Below are positions 23,979-30,144 of a stretch of DNA of 64,000 bases, one piece after another (the stretch's first letter is position 1; each line of letters begins with the position of its first letter). The DNA comes from Solibacillus sp. FSL R5-0449. Lineage in GTDB: Bacteria > Bacillota > Bacilli > Bacillales_A > Planococcaceae. The position numbers and the translations under genes are program-made. The stretch lies in the NCBI RefSeq assembly GCF_037975215.1, contig NZ_CP150239.1, positions 2,394,001 to 2,458,000 of the forward strand, in the 5' to 3' direction. Under the pieces are notes generated by a model that saw only the letters and a list, made by a program, of their open reading frames with translations, did not search any database and was not told where the DNA came from.

Positions 23979-25910
23979 TTATTTCTTCACTTCTGCTGTA
24001 ATATCTGCAAGGAACTGTTCAAAGCTGATTGTTTCTGAATCCTTTGAACCATAGCGGCGGATATTTACCGCATTTTCTGCTACTTCTTTATCTCCAAGTA
24101 CAAGCATGTACGGGATTTTTTGCATTTGTGCTTCACGGATTTTGTAACCTAGTTTTTCTTCACGGTCATCCATTTCTACACGGATACCAGCTGCTGCTAA
24201 TTTTTCTTGTACTTCGCGTGCATAATCATAGTGCACTGCGTTTGATACAGGAATAATTGTCGCTTGCACCGGTGCCAACCATGTCGGGAATGCTCCTTTG
24301 TATTCTTCGATCAAGAATGCTACGAAACGTTCCATTGTTGATACAACACCACGGTGAATAACTACTGGACGTTGTGGCTGCCCATCTTCACCAATGTAAG
24401 AAAGGTCAAAACGTTGTGGCAATAAGAAGTCAAGTTGTGCAGTGGATAAAGTTTCCTCTTTACCAATTGCTGTTTTTACTTGAACATCAAGTTTTGGACC
24501 ATAGAATGCTGCTTCGTCTTCTGCGATGAAGTAGTCATAGCCAAGCTCATCCATTGCTTCTTTTAACATTGCCTGTGCAGTTTCCCACATTTGATCGTCA
24601 TCAAAGTATTTCTCTGTGTTGTTCGGATCGCGGTAAGAAAGACGGAATGAGAAGTCTTTTAGATCGAAGTCTTTATATACTTCTAAAATCAGTTCCACTA
24701 CTTTTTTGAATTCTGCCTTAATTTGATCTGGTCGTACGAAAATGTGTGCGTCATTTAAAGTCATCCCGCGTACACGTTGCAATCCAGATACCGCTCCACT
24801 CATTTCATAACGGTGCATTGTACCAAGCTCCGCAATACGGATTGGCAAGTGACGGTAAGAGTGCAGACCGTTTTTGAATACCATCATATGGTGAGGACAG
24901 TTCATTGGACGTAAAACAAGTGTTTCATTGTCCATTTCCATTGGAGGGAACATGCCGTCTTGATAGTGCTCCCAGTGACCTGATGTTTCATATAGTTTTT
25001 TCGAGCCAAGCACTGGTGTATATACGTGTTTGTAACCTAAAGATAATTCTTTGTCTACGATGTAGCGTTCGATTGTACGGCGGATTGTTGCACCGTTTGG
25101 TAACCATAGCGGTAACCCTTGACCAACAGTTTGGCTAGTCATGAATAAATCCAATTCTTTACCGATTTTACGGTGGTCACGTTCTTTTGCTTCTTCAAGC
25201 ATTTGAAGATGGTGCTTTAACTCGTCTTTTGTGAAGAATGCAGTACCGTAAATACGTTGCAGCATTTTGTTGTCTGAGTTACCGCGCCAGTATGCACCAG
25301 CTAATGATAATAGTTTGAACTCTTTTAATTTGCCTGTAGATGGTACGTGTACACCACGGCAAAGGTCAAAGAAATCGCCTTGGTAGTAAATTGATACTTG
25401 GTCATCAGCTGGAATTGCTTCAAGTAGTTCTAATTTATACTCGTCGCCAACTTCCTCGTAGATTTTTTGTGCTTCATCACGAGAAACGTTTTTGCGCTCG
25501 ATTTCGATGTTTTCAGAAATGATCTTTTTCATTTCTTTTTCGATTGCTGGTAAATCTTCTGCAGTAATCGGTGTTGGTGAATCGATGTCATAGTAGAAGC
25601 CTGAATCGATAACTGGACCGATACCTAATTTTACATCTGGATATAGACGTTTTACTGCCTGTGCTGTTAAGTGGGCAGTTGAGTGACGAAGGATTTCTAA
25701 TGCTTCGTCTGATTTGTTTGTAATGATTTCGATTGCACCGTCTTGTTCGATCCCTGTTTTTGCATCGATTAATGTGCCATTGATTTTACCTGCTAATGTT
25801 GATTTTTTAAGTCCTGGGCTGATTGAACCTGCAACGTCCAATGTAGATGTTCCCTTGGCGAATTCCTTTACTGCGCCATCCGGGAATGTTAATTTGATCA
25901 TTTCTGACAT
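23979..25910 (-). CDS. thrS: Threonine--tRNA ligase
   Basis: 643 residues, the same as B. subtilis ThrS. It charges tRNA-Thr. Domains in order are TGS (about 1-64), the editing domain with the [16 protein letters not shown] motif (about 70-240), the class II catalytic core (about 245-540; [18 protein letters not shown] carries zinc ligand Cys and nearby residues) and the anticodon-binding domain (about 545-643). The ATG follows AAAGGAGGAC. The gene is monocistronic, controlled by a threonine T-box, and its 5' leader also contains repeat copy C. Confidence 0.98.
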
Positions 25911-25965
25911 GTTGTTGTCCTCCTTTTAAATATTTGAAAGTGATAAAATGCCGTCTTTAAATGCC

Positions 25966-26066
25966 GTTGATTTCCGTTTCGGTTACGCTTTCCGCGGGCA
26001 CGGCTCGAGCCTGTAGTCTCTCACTCGTGCTTTTCCCGCTGGAGTCGAACCTCCACTCCAATCAAC
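25966..26066 (+). repeat. Interspersed palindromic repeat, copy C
   Basis: A 101-bp element bounded by GTTGAT and ATCAAC with the same internal order as copies A and B: GCTTTCCGCGGGC, a short GAGCCTGTAGTCTC hairpin, TTTCCCGC, GGAGTCG and CCTCCA-TCCAATCAA. It lacks the GGGACATAACCC box and the terminator hairpin. It sits between the T-box terminator (26133) and the thrS start codon, so it is transcribed as part of the thrS leader. Confidence 0.8.
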
Positions 26067-26132
26067 TAGTTTTCCCTGCAAATATCATTTCACTACTCTT
26101 TTATAAAATTTGTTCAGCACTTTTAGGCAAAA

Positions 26133-26382
26133 TAAAAAGCACCGTCCCAACAAAGGGACGATGCTGTATGCTCGTGGTGCCACCCTTCTTCCTTCTTCGT
26201 TAAACGAATCAGAAGCTCTCGGTCAGTTAACGTACTGAGAAACGATGACGGATTGGCCCCGTCACTGCTCGAAGGTAGTAAAGTATAACGCTTGTGCTAG
26301 GAAGCTTGCAGCCGTGTCTTCCCTCTCTAAAAGCCAGTTCGTTAAACTTGTTGTCCTTTTCAATGCATTTATTGTTTATTTA
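26133..26382 (-). promoter_or_regulatory. T-box leader of thrS
   Basis: The minus strand carries AGGGTGGCACCACGAG (26171-26186) and a terminator stem GCACCGTCCC / GGGACGATGC (26139-26164) with a T run. Stem I has AGAGAGGG and a GC-rich distal arm. The specifier candidate is ACC at 26274-26276, a Thr codon; ACT three bases earlier is an alternative. Uncharged tRNA-Thr should favour antitermination. Confidence 0.9.
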
Positions 26383-26389
26383 CGTACAA

Positions 26390-26418
26390 AGTATACGCTC
26401 GATTTTGGAGAAAAGCAA
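26390..26418 (-). promoter_or_regulatory. Sigma-A promoter of thrS
   Basis: TTGCTT and TATACT spaced by 17 bp on the minus strand. Transcription would start near 26382, the base of the T-box leader. Confidence 0.6.
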
Positions 26419-26444
26419 TATTGAAAAATAAAACTTTTAATATT

Positions 26445-27404
26445 TTATTTTCTGCGGTTTGTTCCGGTAATCTCAAGCGGTGTTGTTAATGCTTGGACCC
26501 GTTGTAAAATACGGCCCGATTTCATTTCATCTATTGCCCCGTGTTCTGTTACGGACCATTGTTCTTCCAACTGTTTGTAATTGAAATTTGAAGAGATAAA
26601 TGTCGGCAATTTTTCTGCCATACGGTAATGCAGGATCGATCCGATAATTTCATCTCTTGTCCATGTAGAAATCGGCTCAGAGCCAACATCATCAAGCATT
26701 AATACCGGCACTTTTTTTACAAAGTCGATTTTTTGTTCAATCGATCCTTCTGTTACCGACGACTTTAATTCACGGATGAATTCCGGCATATATACTAATA
26801 ACGTTTGAATACGTTCTTTCGATAAAGCATTTGCAATCGCACCTAAAATATAGGTTTTCCCAACACCAAATGTTCCGTATAAATACAGCCCTTTTGCAGG
26901 AAGCTCCTTCGTCTCGCGGTATTGCTTTCTAAACTCAACCATAAACTGGGTCGCTGCCATGCGGGAGTTATCGTTCATATCCATTTCATTAAAGTCTGCC
27001 TTTAGGACATCTTTCGGCATATACATCGTCTTCATCATGGAAGCCAGTTCACGCTGGTCATCTTCTTTAAGCATTTGTTCGCACTTTTTGTAAATGATAT
27101 TAATCTGACCATTCGAAAGCATTAATTGCGGAACATGGCCTTTATAGAAATTTTGGCATTGCGCGGTAGAACCTGCTCCACAGCAAGTGTGTTTTTGTTC
27201 CACAAATTCAAAAAGAGTTGTCATGCCATATTGAATAACAGCCGAGTTTTCCGTCATATTATGGTCTTCCATAAACTGTTTTACACTTGGGTGTGAAAGG
27301 ACACGGTTTTTTAATTCATTATATTTTTGCTCAAAAGATGGGATATTTATTTTATTGAGCGAATCTTTTATTGGTTCGATTGTACTCACCTGCTTTTTAA
27401 TCAC
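26445..27404 (-). CDS. dnaI: Primosomal protein DnaI (helicase loader)
   Basis: About 319 residues, an AAA+ ATPase that loads the replicative helicase with DnaB and DnaD. An N-terminal helicase-binding domain has a Cys/His cluster (C74, C75, C83, H90, C108) matching the zinc site region. Walker A is GTFGVGKT at 177-184, Walker B VLMLDDVG with Asp238-239, and SSNF is sensor I. The start is unclear: a GTG at 27404, a GTG at 27389, or the Ile (ATC) at 27380, which aligns with the Met of B. subtilis DnaI and follows AGGTGAG. The gene overlaps the end of dnaB by eight bases, so translational coupling is likely. Confidence 0.93.
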   Translation of the reverse strand: MIKKQVSTIEPIKDSLNKINIPSFEQKYNELKNRVLSHPSVKQFMEDHNMTENSAVIQYGMTTLFEFVEQKHTCCGAGSTAQCQNFYKGHVPQLMLSNGQINIIYKKCEQMLKEDDQRELASMMKTMYMPKDVLKADFNEMDMNDNSRMAATQFMVEFRKQYRETKELPAKGLYLYGTFGVGKTYILGAIANALSKERIQTLLVYMPEFIRELKSSVTEGSIEQKIDFVKKVPVLMLDDVGSEPISTWTRDEIIGSILHYRMAEKLPTFISSNFNYKQLEEQWSVTEHGAIDEMKSGRILQRVQALTTPLEITGTNRRK

Positions 27405-30144
27405 TATTTAGTTGCTCTAATAATTTTTTGCGCTGCTCTTCAAAATCAATCTGGTTTTGAGTAGTGCCGGAATTAGCTGGTTGCATCGATTCCTGATCTT
27501 TTTCTTTAAACCAATCCGGAACTACGCCAACTTTTCTTGCCCCGCGCTGTTTGTTTTTCTTCTCTTGCATTTCAATATAAACTTTTGCATGTTTTATCGT
27601 CTGAATTTTATTGTTGCGCCAAGTATTTGCGACACTGTTAATATATTTTTCAGGCAATGCACCTTCTGTTTTTTCCATTACATATTCGAGCATGTAATTG
27701 ACGACAGCCGGAATCATCTTGTAATGCAAAATCAATTTTTCCGCTGTTGAGACAACATATGCAAATGGCTCATGACCATCGTTTAATTCTTTTGTAAATG
27801 CATATGGCGTCGCTTTTTCATAGCGGGCCAATTCCGGTGTAAACACATAATCCTGAGGATAATATTTCGGTAAATCCTGCTCGGTAATTTTCACGTCTAC
27901 TTTATTTTCTTTATAATTCGTTTCGATGTAAGCAAGTGCGTCTTTAGCCAACAAGATGTCTTTCAGCTGCATATTCAAAGCAAGTGTCTGAATTTGGTTA
28001 CGTCCGAAACGGCTCGTTTTATTCGTTAATATAAATTCTAGAATGGCGTTGACAACACCGACTTTTATACCGTGTTTTAAAACAAGATCATCCACTTGCT
28101 TCACTAACATTTCAACCGGTTCTTTTCCGTTAAGCAAATTTTTCATGAAATCATACGGCAACGTTTCATCGAAAGCCGGAATCCATTTTGACATATCCTT
28201 AACGGTAACTTTAAAGGCAAGCGGAGTATCCATCGTAATTTTTGATGCTTTGAGTTGAGTTCCATCGCTTTCTTCTACAATACGAAGCGCTTCCAATGCA
28301 TTGGCCGGCGGGTTTAACATCCAATTTCCGGCGATAGACTGCACAAAGTTTTTCGTCAGTTTCCCATTGCTCTCATTATAGGCATATTCCATCAGCACAT
28401 TGACTGCACCTACCGAAAGGCCTTGCTGCAATACGAGTTCTTCGGCTAAATCGACAATAAACTTCACCGGTTTTTTTCCTTTATACAGTGACTTCAGGAA
28501 ATAATAAGGAACCGTTTTATCATAGTGAATTGACTGGTCATCTACTGTTAAATAATCTTCTGTCACTTTAATAAGGTTGCGTTCATTTCTCTTTTCAATA
28601 TAGTCCAGTGCTTGCTCGGCTGTCTTAATCTGATTGTACCGGATTTCAGATGCCAAAGCTTCAACAAATGATTCCGGCAAGTTGCCTTTTGTCGAGTCCC
28701 ACACATGACGAATGATGACGTTTCCCACTTCTATCGGGATATCATAAGAACTGTAAAGCGATTCTGCTATTTTTATATGCCCTGAAAATGGTTCTTCACC
28801 ATGAGTCAAAATCAGCAAATACTGATAAGGTGTAGAATTTTTATAATCGACTAGCGCTGAATCAGGAGAATCGGTTTTCGAGTTATTATTTTCTTCCGTT
28901 TTATTTAAATCGTTTTTCGTAACCGTAATTTGCGATAGGTTTTTCGATTTACGATCACGGTAGCTATGTTCAACTTTTGCAATTTCCATCGTATTTTCAG
29001 CTGTTTTCGCACCTTTTTTCAGCCAGTTATTCATGACTACCTTCATAAAGTTCTTATTGTAATTTAGTTCGTCATTCATTGAAATATAATGGATCAAAAC
29101 ATTCAAGGTACCGTAAGAAACGCCCTTTCTAATGAAATGATTAAATTCCATTACAACGGATTCCGGCGGCAAATAACCGTTAAATTTTTGGAAAACTTCA
29201 ATCGGTGAGGTTTTTTCCAAATACTCGATTAAACCTTCTTTATCATTAATATTTTGCGGTGCTTTTGCTGGAGCAGTGTTGATTACTTCCACCGAACGGA
29301 AAATGTCCTGTTTTTTGATCAGCTTTGGTTTCGCCACACCAACGTTCAGCTGGTAATATTCCTCACAGCGTTTTTCAAGCTCTTTTTTCGTAAGTCCTTC
29401 ATCTGTATCCCATGCCAGTAAGACGATTCTTTGCATATCCGTCACTGAGAAATTATACATAAACGCTAATTTAGCAATGGCAATCTTTATATCGAGCGTG
29501 AATAATCTACTCGGGATTAAATTTTGGCTCATGCCCATCATGAAGCTCTTAAAATCAAATAAGTCATACTCAAACGGGTACGACATTTTTGAACGTTCAT
29601 TAACAGAACCCGTATTTTCCTGCATTACTTGCTTTAGCTCAGATTCCGTTATCGCAACAAATGCATCATTAAAGCTGCATGTTACATCTTTGTACCCTTG
29701 TAAGGAAATATCATGCTTCGCTAATTTATTTCGTAATGATTCATACTGTTCGCGGCCGATTTTACGTAAAAGTGCTACAGAAAGAATGGAATCGTCAAAG
29801 AAGTCATGGCCAGTTAATGGCGGATATAAAATATACTTCATCGATTTATATGAATCCATCATCTTCTCAAAGGACTTCACTAAACCAATTGCTTCTAATA
29901 TTATTCTTGCCTCTAGTAATTGCTTCGGTTTAAAACTTAATGAATCGAGCAGGTTGCTATGAAAACAAGTTGCCTTTTCATGTTGTTGTGTTTCAACCCA
30001 TAACTTTAAATATAGTGCAGTAGCTTCAACACCGATAATCGGCTGATAGCATAATTGTAATGCAAGCTGATGCTCACTAGTGATAGTTTGAGGGCAATGA
30101 ATTTCACAATGGTCATATGGATTTAGCTGATTCATCATTACCAT
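27397..30144 (-). CDS. dnaB: Replication initiation protein DnaB, with expanded DDBH2 repeats
   Basis: 915 residues against roughly 470 in B. subtilis. The N-terminal DDBH1 domain (about 15-290) is conventional. It is followed by five DDBH2 (DnaB_2) domains at about 312-390, 438-517, 545-624, 662-742 and 779-858. Each opens with a [TVL]PYxF-like helix and ends with a YxxxIxxxW-like motif: FMKVVMNNW (366-374), FVEALASEI (493-501), FVQSIAGNW (600-608), QIQTLALNM (717-725) and YINSVANTW (834-842). Copies 2 and 4 have lost the tryptophan. The linkers repeat too (ITVTKNDL, VTEDYL, VTVKDMSKW, ITEQDLPKY). Synteny nrdR-dnaB-dnaI supports the assignment. DnaB recruits DnaI-DnaC to the origin and to membranes. 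Confidence 0.95.
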   Translation of the reverse strand: MVMMNQLNPYDHCEIHCPQTITSEHQLALQLCYQPIIGVEATALYLKLWVETQQHEKATCFHSNLLDSLSFKPKQLLEARIILEAIGLVKSFEKMMDSYKSMKYILYPPLTGHDFFDDSILSVALLRKIGREQYESLRNKLAKHDISLQGYKDVTCSFNDAFVAITESELKQVMQENTGSVNERSKMSYPFEYDLFDFKSFMMGMSQNLIPSRLFTLDIKIAIAKLAFMYNFSVTDMQRIVLLAWDTDEGLTKKELEKRCEEYYQLNVGVAKPKLIKKQDIFRSVEVINTAPAKAPQNINDKEGLIEYLEKTSPIEVFQKFNGYLPPESVVMEFNHFIRKGVSYGTLNVLIHYISMNDELNYNKNFMKVVMNNWLKKGAKTAENTMEIAKVEHSYRDRKSKNLSQITVTKNDLNKTEENNNSKTDSPDSALVDYKNSTPYQYLLILTHGEEPFSGHIKIAESLYSSYDIPIEVGNVIIRHVWDSTKGNLPESFVEALASEIRYNQIKTAEQALDYIEKRNERNLIKVTEDYLTVDDQSIHYDKTVPYYFLKSLYKGKKPVKFIVDLAEELVLQQGLSVGAVNVLMEYAYNESNGKLTKNFVQSIAGNWMLNPPANALEALRIVEESDGTQLKASKITMDTPLAFKVTVKDMSKWIPAFDETLPYDFMKNLLNGKEPVEMLVKQVDDLVLKHGIKVGVVNAILEFILTNKTSRFGRNQIQTLALNMQLKDILLAKDALAYIETNYKENKVDVKITEQDLPKYYPQDYVFTPELARYEKATPYAFTKELNDGHEPFAYVVSTAEKLILHYKMIPAVVNYMLEYVMEKTEGALPEKYINSVANTWRNNKIQTIKHAKVYIEMQEKKNKQRGARKVGVVPDWFKEKDQESMQPANSGTTQNQIDFEEQRKKLLEQLNSD
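27550..28932 (-). repeat. Tandem DDBH2-plus-linker units inside dnaB
   Basis: Residues 405-865 of DnaB divide into four units of about 105-120 residues (405-524, 525-644, 645-750, 751-865), each a short linker with a [VI]T-x-D pattern followed by a DDBH2 domain; an additional domain at 312-390 precedes them. Sequence between copies is strongly diverged, so the expansion is old or the copies have specialised. Nucleotide similarity between copies is low by eye. Confidence 0.8.

Follow-up and report, generated by a model that had tools for sequence, protein, structure and literature searches.

A DnaB protein with five C-terminal domain units and a divergent DnaI partner in Solibacillus sp. FSL R5-0449: probable replacement of a resident dnaB by recombination or transfer

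DnaB, an essential co-loader of Bacilli that acts with DnaI and DnaD, is the tetrameric hub through which the helicase is loaded. In Bacillus subtilis it is composed of one DDBH1 domain and, by the older count, two DDBH2 domains, names that were reportedly given by Marston et al. An N-terminal domain (NTD), a middle domain (MD), a C-terminal domain (CTD) and a C-terminal tail (CTT) follow each other along the chain, with the single CTD adjoining the CTT (PDB 29km; PMC13326638). The NTD residues D122 and F161 contact DnaA, the tail of DnaD sits in a groove of the CTD (L315, L350, Y360, L364), and the CTT carries the site for DnaI (K456, M459, M460, L466) (PMC13326638). The same source proposes that two extended protomers of the DnaB tetramer bring two helicases, and its B. 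subtilis model of 2026 places CTD, CTT, DnaD and DnaI in mutual competition (PMC13326638). The Trp of the YxxxIxxxW motif is assigned a role in higher-order assembly and DNA binding (PMC13326638, PMC5295017). Other close systems are the solved fragment 1-300 of Geobacillus stearothermophilus DnaB (PDB 5wtn), which contains NTD and MD without the CTD part, and the DDBH2 domain of DnaD (PDB 2i5u; DnaD in 9a5c). The loaders DnaI and DnaC are described as phage genes that became domesticated, with acquisition on at least seven occasions (PMC5109545); loader replacement has thus happened before, at a larger scale. Here we analysed a window of 64,000 nucleotides from Solibacillus sp. FSL R5-0449 (family Planococcaceae; contig NZ_CP150239.1, positions 2,394,001 to 2,458,000), in which dnaB encodes a protein with five CTD-type units and is followed by a divergent dnaI (Table 1), the gene order also described for B. 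subtilis (PMC5204125).

The DnaB of the window is like that of B. subtilis in the order of its domains, in the pattern of the tail and in the Asp at the position of D122, and it shares NTD and MD with the G. stearothermophilus fragment (phmmer, E 3.9e-46 against PDB 29km and 8.5e-36 against 5wtn). Unlike the B. subtilis protein it contains five CTDs (DDBH2 units c1-c5), so that four units stand between c1 and the usual CTT. An earlier note on this DNA, made from the letters alone, had claimed five DDBH2 domains after the DDBH1 region and about twice the usual length, and both claims held. With a CTD model derived from 32 one-CTD DnaB proteins of the family, each unit scored 45-64 bits and none of 500 shuffles of the protein scored above 4.1; the length of 915 aa compares with 446-501 aa in 225 of the 259 family genomes with a match. 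The MD is present besides c1-c5, which makes six DDBH2 by the older count versus two in B. subtilis. The claim is less clear with PF07261 alone, for which at least four significant matches had been asked. Three units (c1, c3 and c5) exceeded the curated cut-off, c2 fell below it and c4 gave no match; the family model settles the number at five. PF07261 recognised 50 of the 51 units of set A3 at E <= 0.01. The five-unit architecture is nearly certain.

Pairwise identity among the five units is 17-33%. Loss of the motif Trp in two of them, as had been noted, was confirmed for c2 (FVEALASEI, residues 493-501) and c4 (QIQTLALNM, residues 717-725), while c1, c3 and c5 keep the Trp and the initial Tyr is replaced by Phe in c1 and c3. 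Six helices were predicted by AlphaFold2 in each of the five units, with low overall confidence. The model of the whole protein had a predicted template modelling score (pTM) of 0.26, because of which the spatial arrangement of the units was not interpreted, and its best fold match was PDB 5wtn (E 3.7e-12). A single unit searched alone with Foldseek gave no match at E <= 0.001; with VIA-align, DnaD ranked first for a single unit (two DnaD rows, one of them an integrative model). The CTT could be aligned with PDB 29km up to residue 463, with R, L and L opposite K456, M459 and M460 of B. subtilis and with L466 lying past the end of the alignment.

The family was searched in 261 genomes, two of which (G151 and G273) had no match and are highly fragmented assemblies. 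By open-frame length, the other 259 comprised 20 long, 12 middle and 225 ordinary forms, together with two broken or fragmentary ones (G125 and G249). The long form (863-935 aa) was found in 6/16 genomes of the genus of the window (g1), 5/5 of g18, 6/24 of g11 with a match and 3/3 of g7, being patchy even inside the genus of the window. The middle form (576-615 aa) was confined to g10 (8/8) and g17 (4/4). When units were counted on the sequences, five were present in all 20 long forms, two in each of the 11 middle forms counted and one in each of the 33 ordinary forms counted. One CTD was also found in DnaB of all 16 other families of the class that were sampled (the search matched in 18 of 24 genomes from other families), so the five-copy form is not the normal state. 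An assembly artefact is ruled out, since four genera, with 20 genomes in all, possess the long form and several of these genomes are single-contig. The middle form is like the long form in having been lengthened by CTD duplication, but it represents an independent event because the second unit of g10 and g17 formed its own clade (100/99) in the unit tree; g10 and g17 together form one clade on the tree of flanking genes. The patchy distribution of the five-CTD form calls for recombination or transfer.

The dnaB-dnaI pair contrasts with its surroundings. Compared with the ten one-CTD species of its own genus, the window showed identities of 29-33% for DnaB and 44-46% for DnaI, versus 93-98% for ThrS, 93-97% for GapB and 91-97% for NrdR. 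The nearest one-CTD species (G004 and G006) reached 31% for DnaB and 45% for DnaI, and in the same species DnaA is 99% identical (100% over the first 90 columns, domain I), the helicase 98% and DnaD 88-89%. By domain, identity to the G004 locus (L072) was 35% for NTD, 37% for MD, 27% for c1 and 46% for DnaI, against 98% for ThrS, 96% for NrdR and 97% for GapB. At the nucleotide level, identity to G004 was 83-95% in the 540 nt before dnaB and fell at the dnaB start; it was 30-77% in the stretches aligned (dnaB over its initial 1.2 kb and its final 0.2 kb, and dnaI) and was back to 87-95% within about 90 nt past the dnaI stop.

Phylogenetic analysis of NTD and MD (46 rows, including four of the six long and seven of the ten one-CTD forms of the genus) joined the group of the window with g18 (100/100), and its union with its own genus was rejected by the approximately unbiased (AU) test (p 0.00031). 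In the unit tree, which comprised 79 units from 33 representatives, ten of them long forms, and which has few columns and 20 open forks, c1-c5 of the window paired one-to-one with c1-c5 of g18 at all five positions (100/99 or 100/100). The g18 protein has its five units in the same order, with 45-47% identity. These results argue that the resident one-CTD dnaB was very probably replaced through recombination or transfer in the lineage of the window, and we consider it probable that DnaI was part of the same event. The five units in 20/20 long forms and the one-to-one pairing also bear out the earlier idea of an old and maintained expansion. Taken as a whole, the earlier interpretation is partly supported; it missed the deviation of DnaI, the patchiness within the genus and the need for recombination or transfer.

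A mosaic of the same kind was found in g11. Four of its long forms (L081-L084) grouped by NTD and MD with their one-CTD sisters L088 and L104 (96/91). However, c1 of the same proteins rejected this grouping (p 0.0045) and joined the other g11 long forms (99/92), and DnaI also rejected it (p 0.024). Between L082 and L088, identity was 83% for NTD, 74% for MD, 61% for c1, 30% for CTT and 41% for DnaI, with 93% for ThrS, 90% for NrdR and 94% for GapB. From this conflict the exchanged block seems to begin near c1 and to finish where dnaI ends. Judged from these sequences, the exchange in g11 appears to start between MD and c1 and to take c1-c5, the CTT and DnaI, with the native NTD and MD staying in place. 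Across 64 loci, the five-CTD state needed six changes on a quick tree of flanking genes and one on the DnaI tree.

As an alternative, the common ancestor of g1, g7, g11 and g18 could have possessed the five-CTD form, or both forms, or an old paralogy could be involved, with repeated losses and no transfer. A single branch (100/99) separates units c2-c5 of the ten long forms from c1, from the single CTDs and from the two units of the middle forms. The extra units thus had probably a single origin, as this alternative would expect, and dnaB and dnaI have a base composition that is unremarkable in the window and does not tell the readings apart (GC 37.3% for dnaB, 38.6% for dnaI and 38.8% for the window). 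However, six state changes would be required on the flanking-gene tree, and a genome with two dnaB genes is absent: the DDBH1 search found a single match in 258 of the 259 family genomes and two pieces in the fragmentary G125, with a second dnaB in none. Moreover, the conflict between the nearest relatives of NTD and c1 in g11 and the difference from the sisters G004 and G006 are left unexplained, and we regard this alternative as improbable. Another possibility is that DnaB and DnaI were accelerated in place on the stem of the group of the window, perhaps under phage loader inhibitors, and that nothing was transferred. The divergence does end at gene borders and affects both partners of an interacting pair, and DnaI does not reject vertical descent. 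However, acceleration is rejected by the NTD tree and has to face the one-to-one pairing with the units of g18. Inside the group of the window, moreover, the pair is now no faster than DnaD (98% identity for DnaI, 96% for the first 300 residues of DnaB, 96-97% for DnaD). We therefore give this explanation little credit.

Several observations weigh against exchange of the pair. DnaI alone did not reject vertical descent, with AU p values of 0.109 (g1), 0.158 (g1, g15 and g19) and 0.072 (g11), and the branch joining all five-CTD DnaI proteins obtained only 87/88, with long branches inside it and a warning from the program. By identity, the DnaI of the window has its closest counterpart (49%) in G276, a g11 species with a one-CTD DnaB of 459 aa. 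The DnaI of g18 differs from that of the window in being only moderately divergent (51-64% identity to near one-CTD partners), from which it follows that strong deviation of DnaI is not required by a DnaB with five CTDs. The union of the two five-CTD groups of g11 by NTD was not rejected (p 0.0885). Drops of identity at gene borders would also be expected from fast protein evolution. Finally, the search for a donor of c2-CTT or DnaI gave nothing above 49%: outside the genus, the closest c2-CTT sequences were those of g18 (47-49%) and of g11 and g7 (32-40%), and among 398 class genomes drawn for a distant DnaI donor the best match after the own genome was 49% and from the same family.

Taking both sides into account, we favour, with some reserve, an alternative dnaB-dnaI helicase-loader cassette that has been exchanged between lineages and in which the extra units would have a long-arm function. 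In this cassette the NTD core would tetramerise and contact DnaA as usual, c1 would dock the DnaD tail, and the CTT, four units beyond c1, would dock DnaI with the helicase. Units c2-c5 would then be four extra helical beads on linkers between the docks for DnaD and DnaI, forming a longer arm for helicase delivery, and the Trp-bearing ones among them may be available for DNA binding or self-assembly. The lengthened scaffold suggested in the earlier note is plausible. DnaI would have to fit the C-terminal half of DnaB, and this would account for their joint transfer next to a DnaA, DnaD and helicase that remain native.

The assignment of c1 as the DnaD dock comes from position 364 (B. subtilis numbering), which is L or I in 33/33 one-CTD forms and L or M in 20/20 c1 units; L, M, I and V are all absent from this position in the 80 extra units c2-c5, three of which have Ala. 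By this pattern c1 is the likely DnaD dock, and extra docking sites for DnaD of the known kind, one way in which additional domains could have added partner contacts as previously suggested, are unlikely in c2-c5. Position 315 is Y or F in 77/80 extra units and L in 14/20 c1 units, and position 360, Tyr in B. subtilis, is E, Q, D or H in the one-CTD forms and c1 studied here and E in 73/80 extra units. On the opposite side, c1 of g11 has Y or F and not L at position 315, and the differences at positions 315 and 360 mean that the DnaD pocket is not identical to that of B. subtilis. The long-arm function with c1 as DnaD dock could be correct, but on the residues compared we would put it slightly on the doubtful side. 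The DnaD tail motif YNWL was kept in 30/30 genomes compared. The DnaD of the window genome (L001:1018-1839) is ordinary; it ends in YNWLEERE and keeps the Trp of the DnaB-binding tail.

The motif Trp is kept in 56/80 extra units, and its loss in c2 and c4 occurs only in g1 and g18; it is lost too in c3 of two of the six g11 proteins and in c1 of one of the five g18 proteins. Neutral lengthening, with the extra units as passengers kept by drift, could draw on the loss of this Trp from c2 and c4 in proteins of the type of the window, whose c4 is not even seen by PF07261, but it is quite improbable given that 20/20 long forms have always five units and never three, four or six, that the unit core has a Pro and an Asn which do not vary among the aligned units (51/51), and that position 360 is E in 73/80 extra units.

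The partner DnaI was compared at two positions. Position 134, at the DnaB interface, is L in 27/27 near one-CTD partners and M in 14/15 DnaI proteins of g1, g11 and g7, which fits a matched C-terminal half; shared ancestry would give the same pattern. All g18 proteins (5/5) and that of one of the three g7 genomes carry I at this position, which speaks against such a match. Position 70 (B. subtilis numbering), where the Cys is presumably a zinc ligand of the N domain, is A, S or Q in 15/15 five-CTD partners of g1, g11 and g7. Loss of this Cys was rejected as a marker of the five-CTD form, however, as C is kept in 5/5 g18 proteins and A or N occurs in 4/27 near one-CTD partners, including sisters of the group of the window.

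The proteins that initiate replication are commonly regarded as bound to one another by the contacts they make. In this case, sister species share helicase and DnaA domain I at 98-100% identity, yet their DnaB and DnaI are only about 31% and 45% identical and the pairs have different architectures. Such a natural domain swap points to the contacts that are constrained, those of the C-terminal half of DnaB with DnaI, and to those that can vary. The pair also offers a direct test of the B. subtilis competition model of 2026 (PMC13326638). A further step, which we put forward as speculative and rather unlikely, would be a recurrently exchanged and mutually specific loader cassette, in which incompatible one- and five-CTD architectures would swap at one locus, either whole or from the first CTD downstream, under selection such as by phage proteins attacking the loader, with the rest of the initiation machinery unchanged. 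Neither a multi-CTD DnaB nor an exchange of dnaB-dnaI appeared in titles and the beginnings of abstracts of open-licence PMC papers, among the matches listed.

A mobile-element origin was considered and rejected, since tblastn of the whole protein gave no long form among plasmids (five records, coverage up to 61%, identity below 29%, spans not exceeding about 1.4 kb) or phages (five records, coverage up to 45%); a scan of viral contigs likewise gave no relative.

Table 1. Features of the dnaB-dnaI pair of Solibacillus sp. FSL R5-0449 (coordinates in the window)
Feature	Description	Coordinates	Strand	Evidence
dnaB	five-CTD form, 915 aa	27397..30144	-	open reading frame; NCBIfam DnaB models; PDB 29km and 5wtn matches
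dnaI	319 aa from listed GTG start; divergent partner	26445..27404	-	NCBIfam DnaI
NTD (DDBH1)	about residues 1-180; tetramerisation core and DnaA site by homology	29605..30144	-	alignment; NTD tree; fold match 5wtn
MD (first DDBH2 in older nomenclature)	residues 189-268	29341..29580	-	family MD model 87.9 bits; no PF07261 match
c1	residues 305-394; Met at B. subtilis position 364; F-V-W at YxxxIxxxW	28963..29232	-	44.8 bits; PF07261 E 2.9e-7
c2	residues 434-521; motif Trp lost	28582..28845	-	46.2 bits; PF07261 E 4.8e-4, below cut-off
c3	residues 540-622; motif Trp kept	28279..28527	-	55.9 bits; PF07261 E 2.6e-5; six-helix model, pLDDT (predicted local distance difference test) 90.7
c4	residues 658-741; whole motif degenerate (Q-L-M)	27922..28173	-	49.2 bits; no PF07261 match
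c5	residues 775-855; motif kept (Y-V-W)	27580..27822	-	63.9 bits; PF07261 E 7.1e-10
CTT	residues 868-915; DnaI-binding site by homology	27400..27543	-	29km alignment; predicted helix 901-914

The five-CTD dnaB lies with its dnaI at the normal nrdR-dnaB-dnaI-thrS locus, and the listed GTG start of dnaI overlaps dnaB by 8 nt. Two NCBIfam DnaB models matched the protein at E 1.6e-93 and 6.8e-90, with 314 and 302 bits against equivalog cut-offs of 570 and 800. Three of three ordinary one-CTD DnaB proteins of the family also remained under these cut-offs (303-343 bits), which therefore do not separate the forms. DnaI obtained 355 bits against a cut-off of 228 with the NCBIfam DnaI model, contains PF07319 and PF01695, and matched PDB 4m4w at E 3.1e-78. 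No Rfam family reached its gathering score in positions 25800-27400, and a stretch of about 240 nt between dnaI and thrS (26117-26357) that is 87-95% identical to the sister species, above the rest of the intergenic sequence, is possibly a thrS leader.

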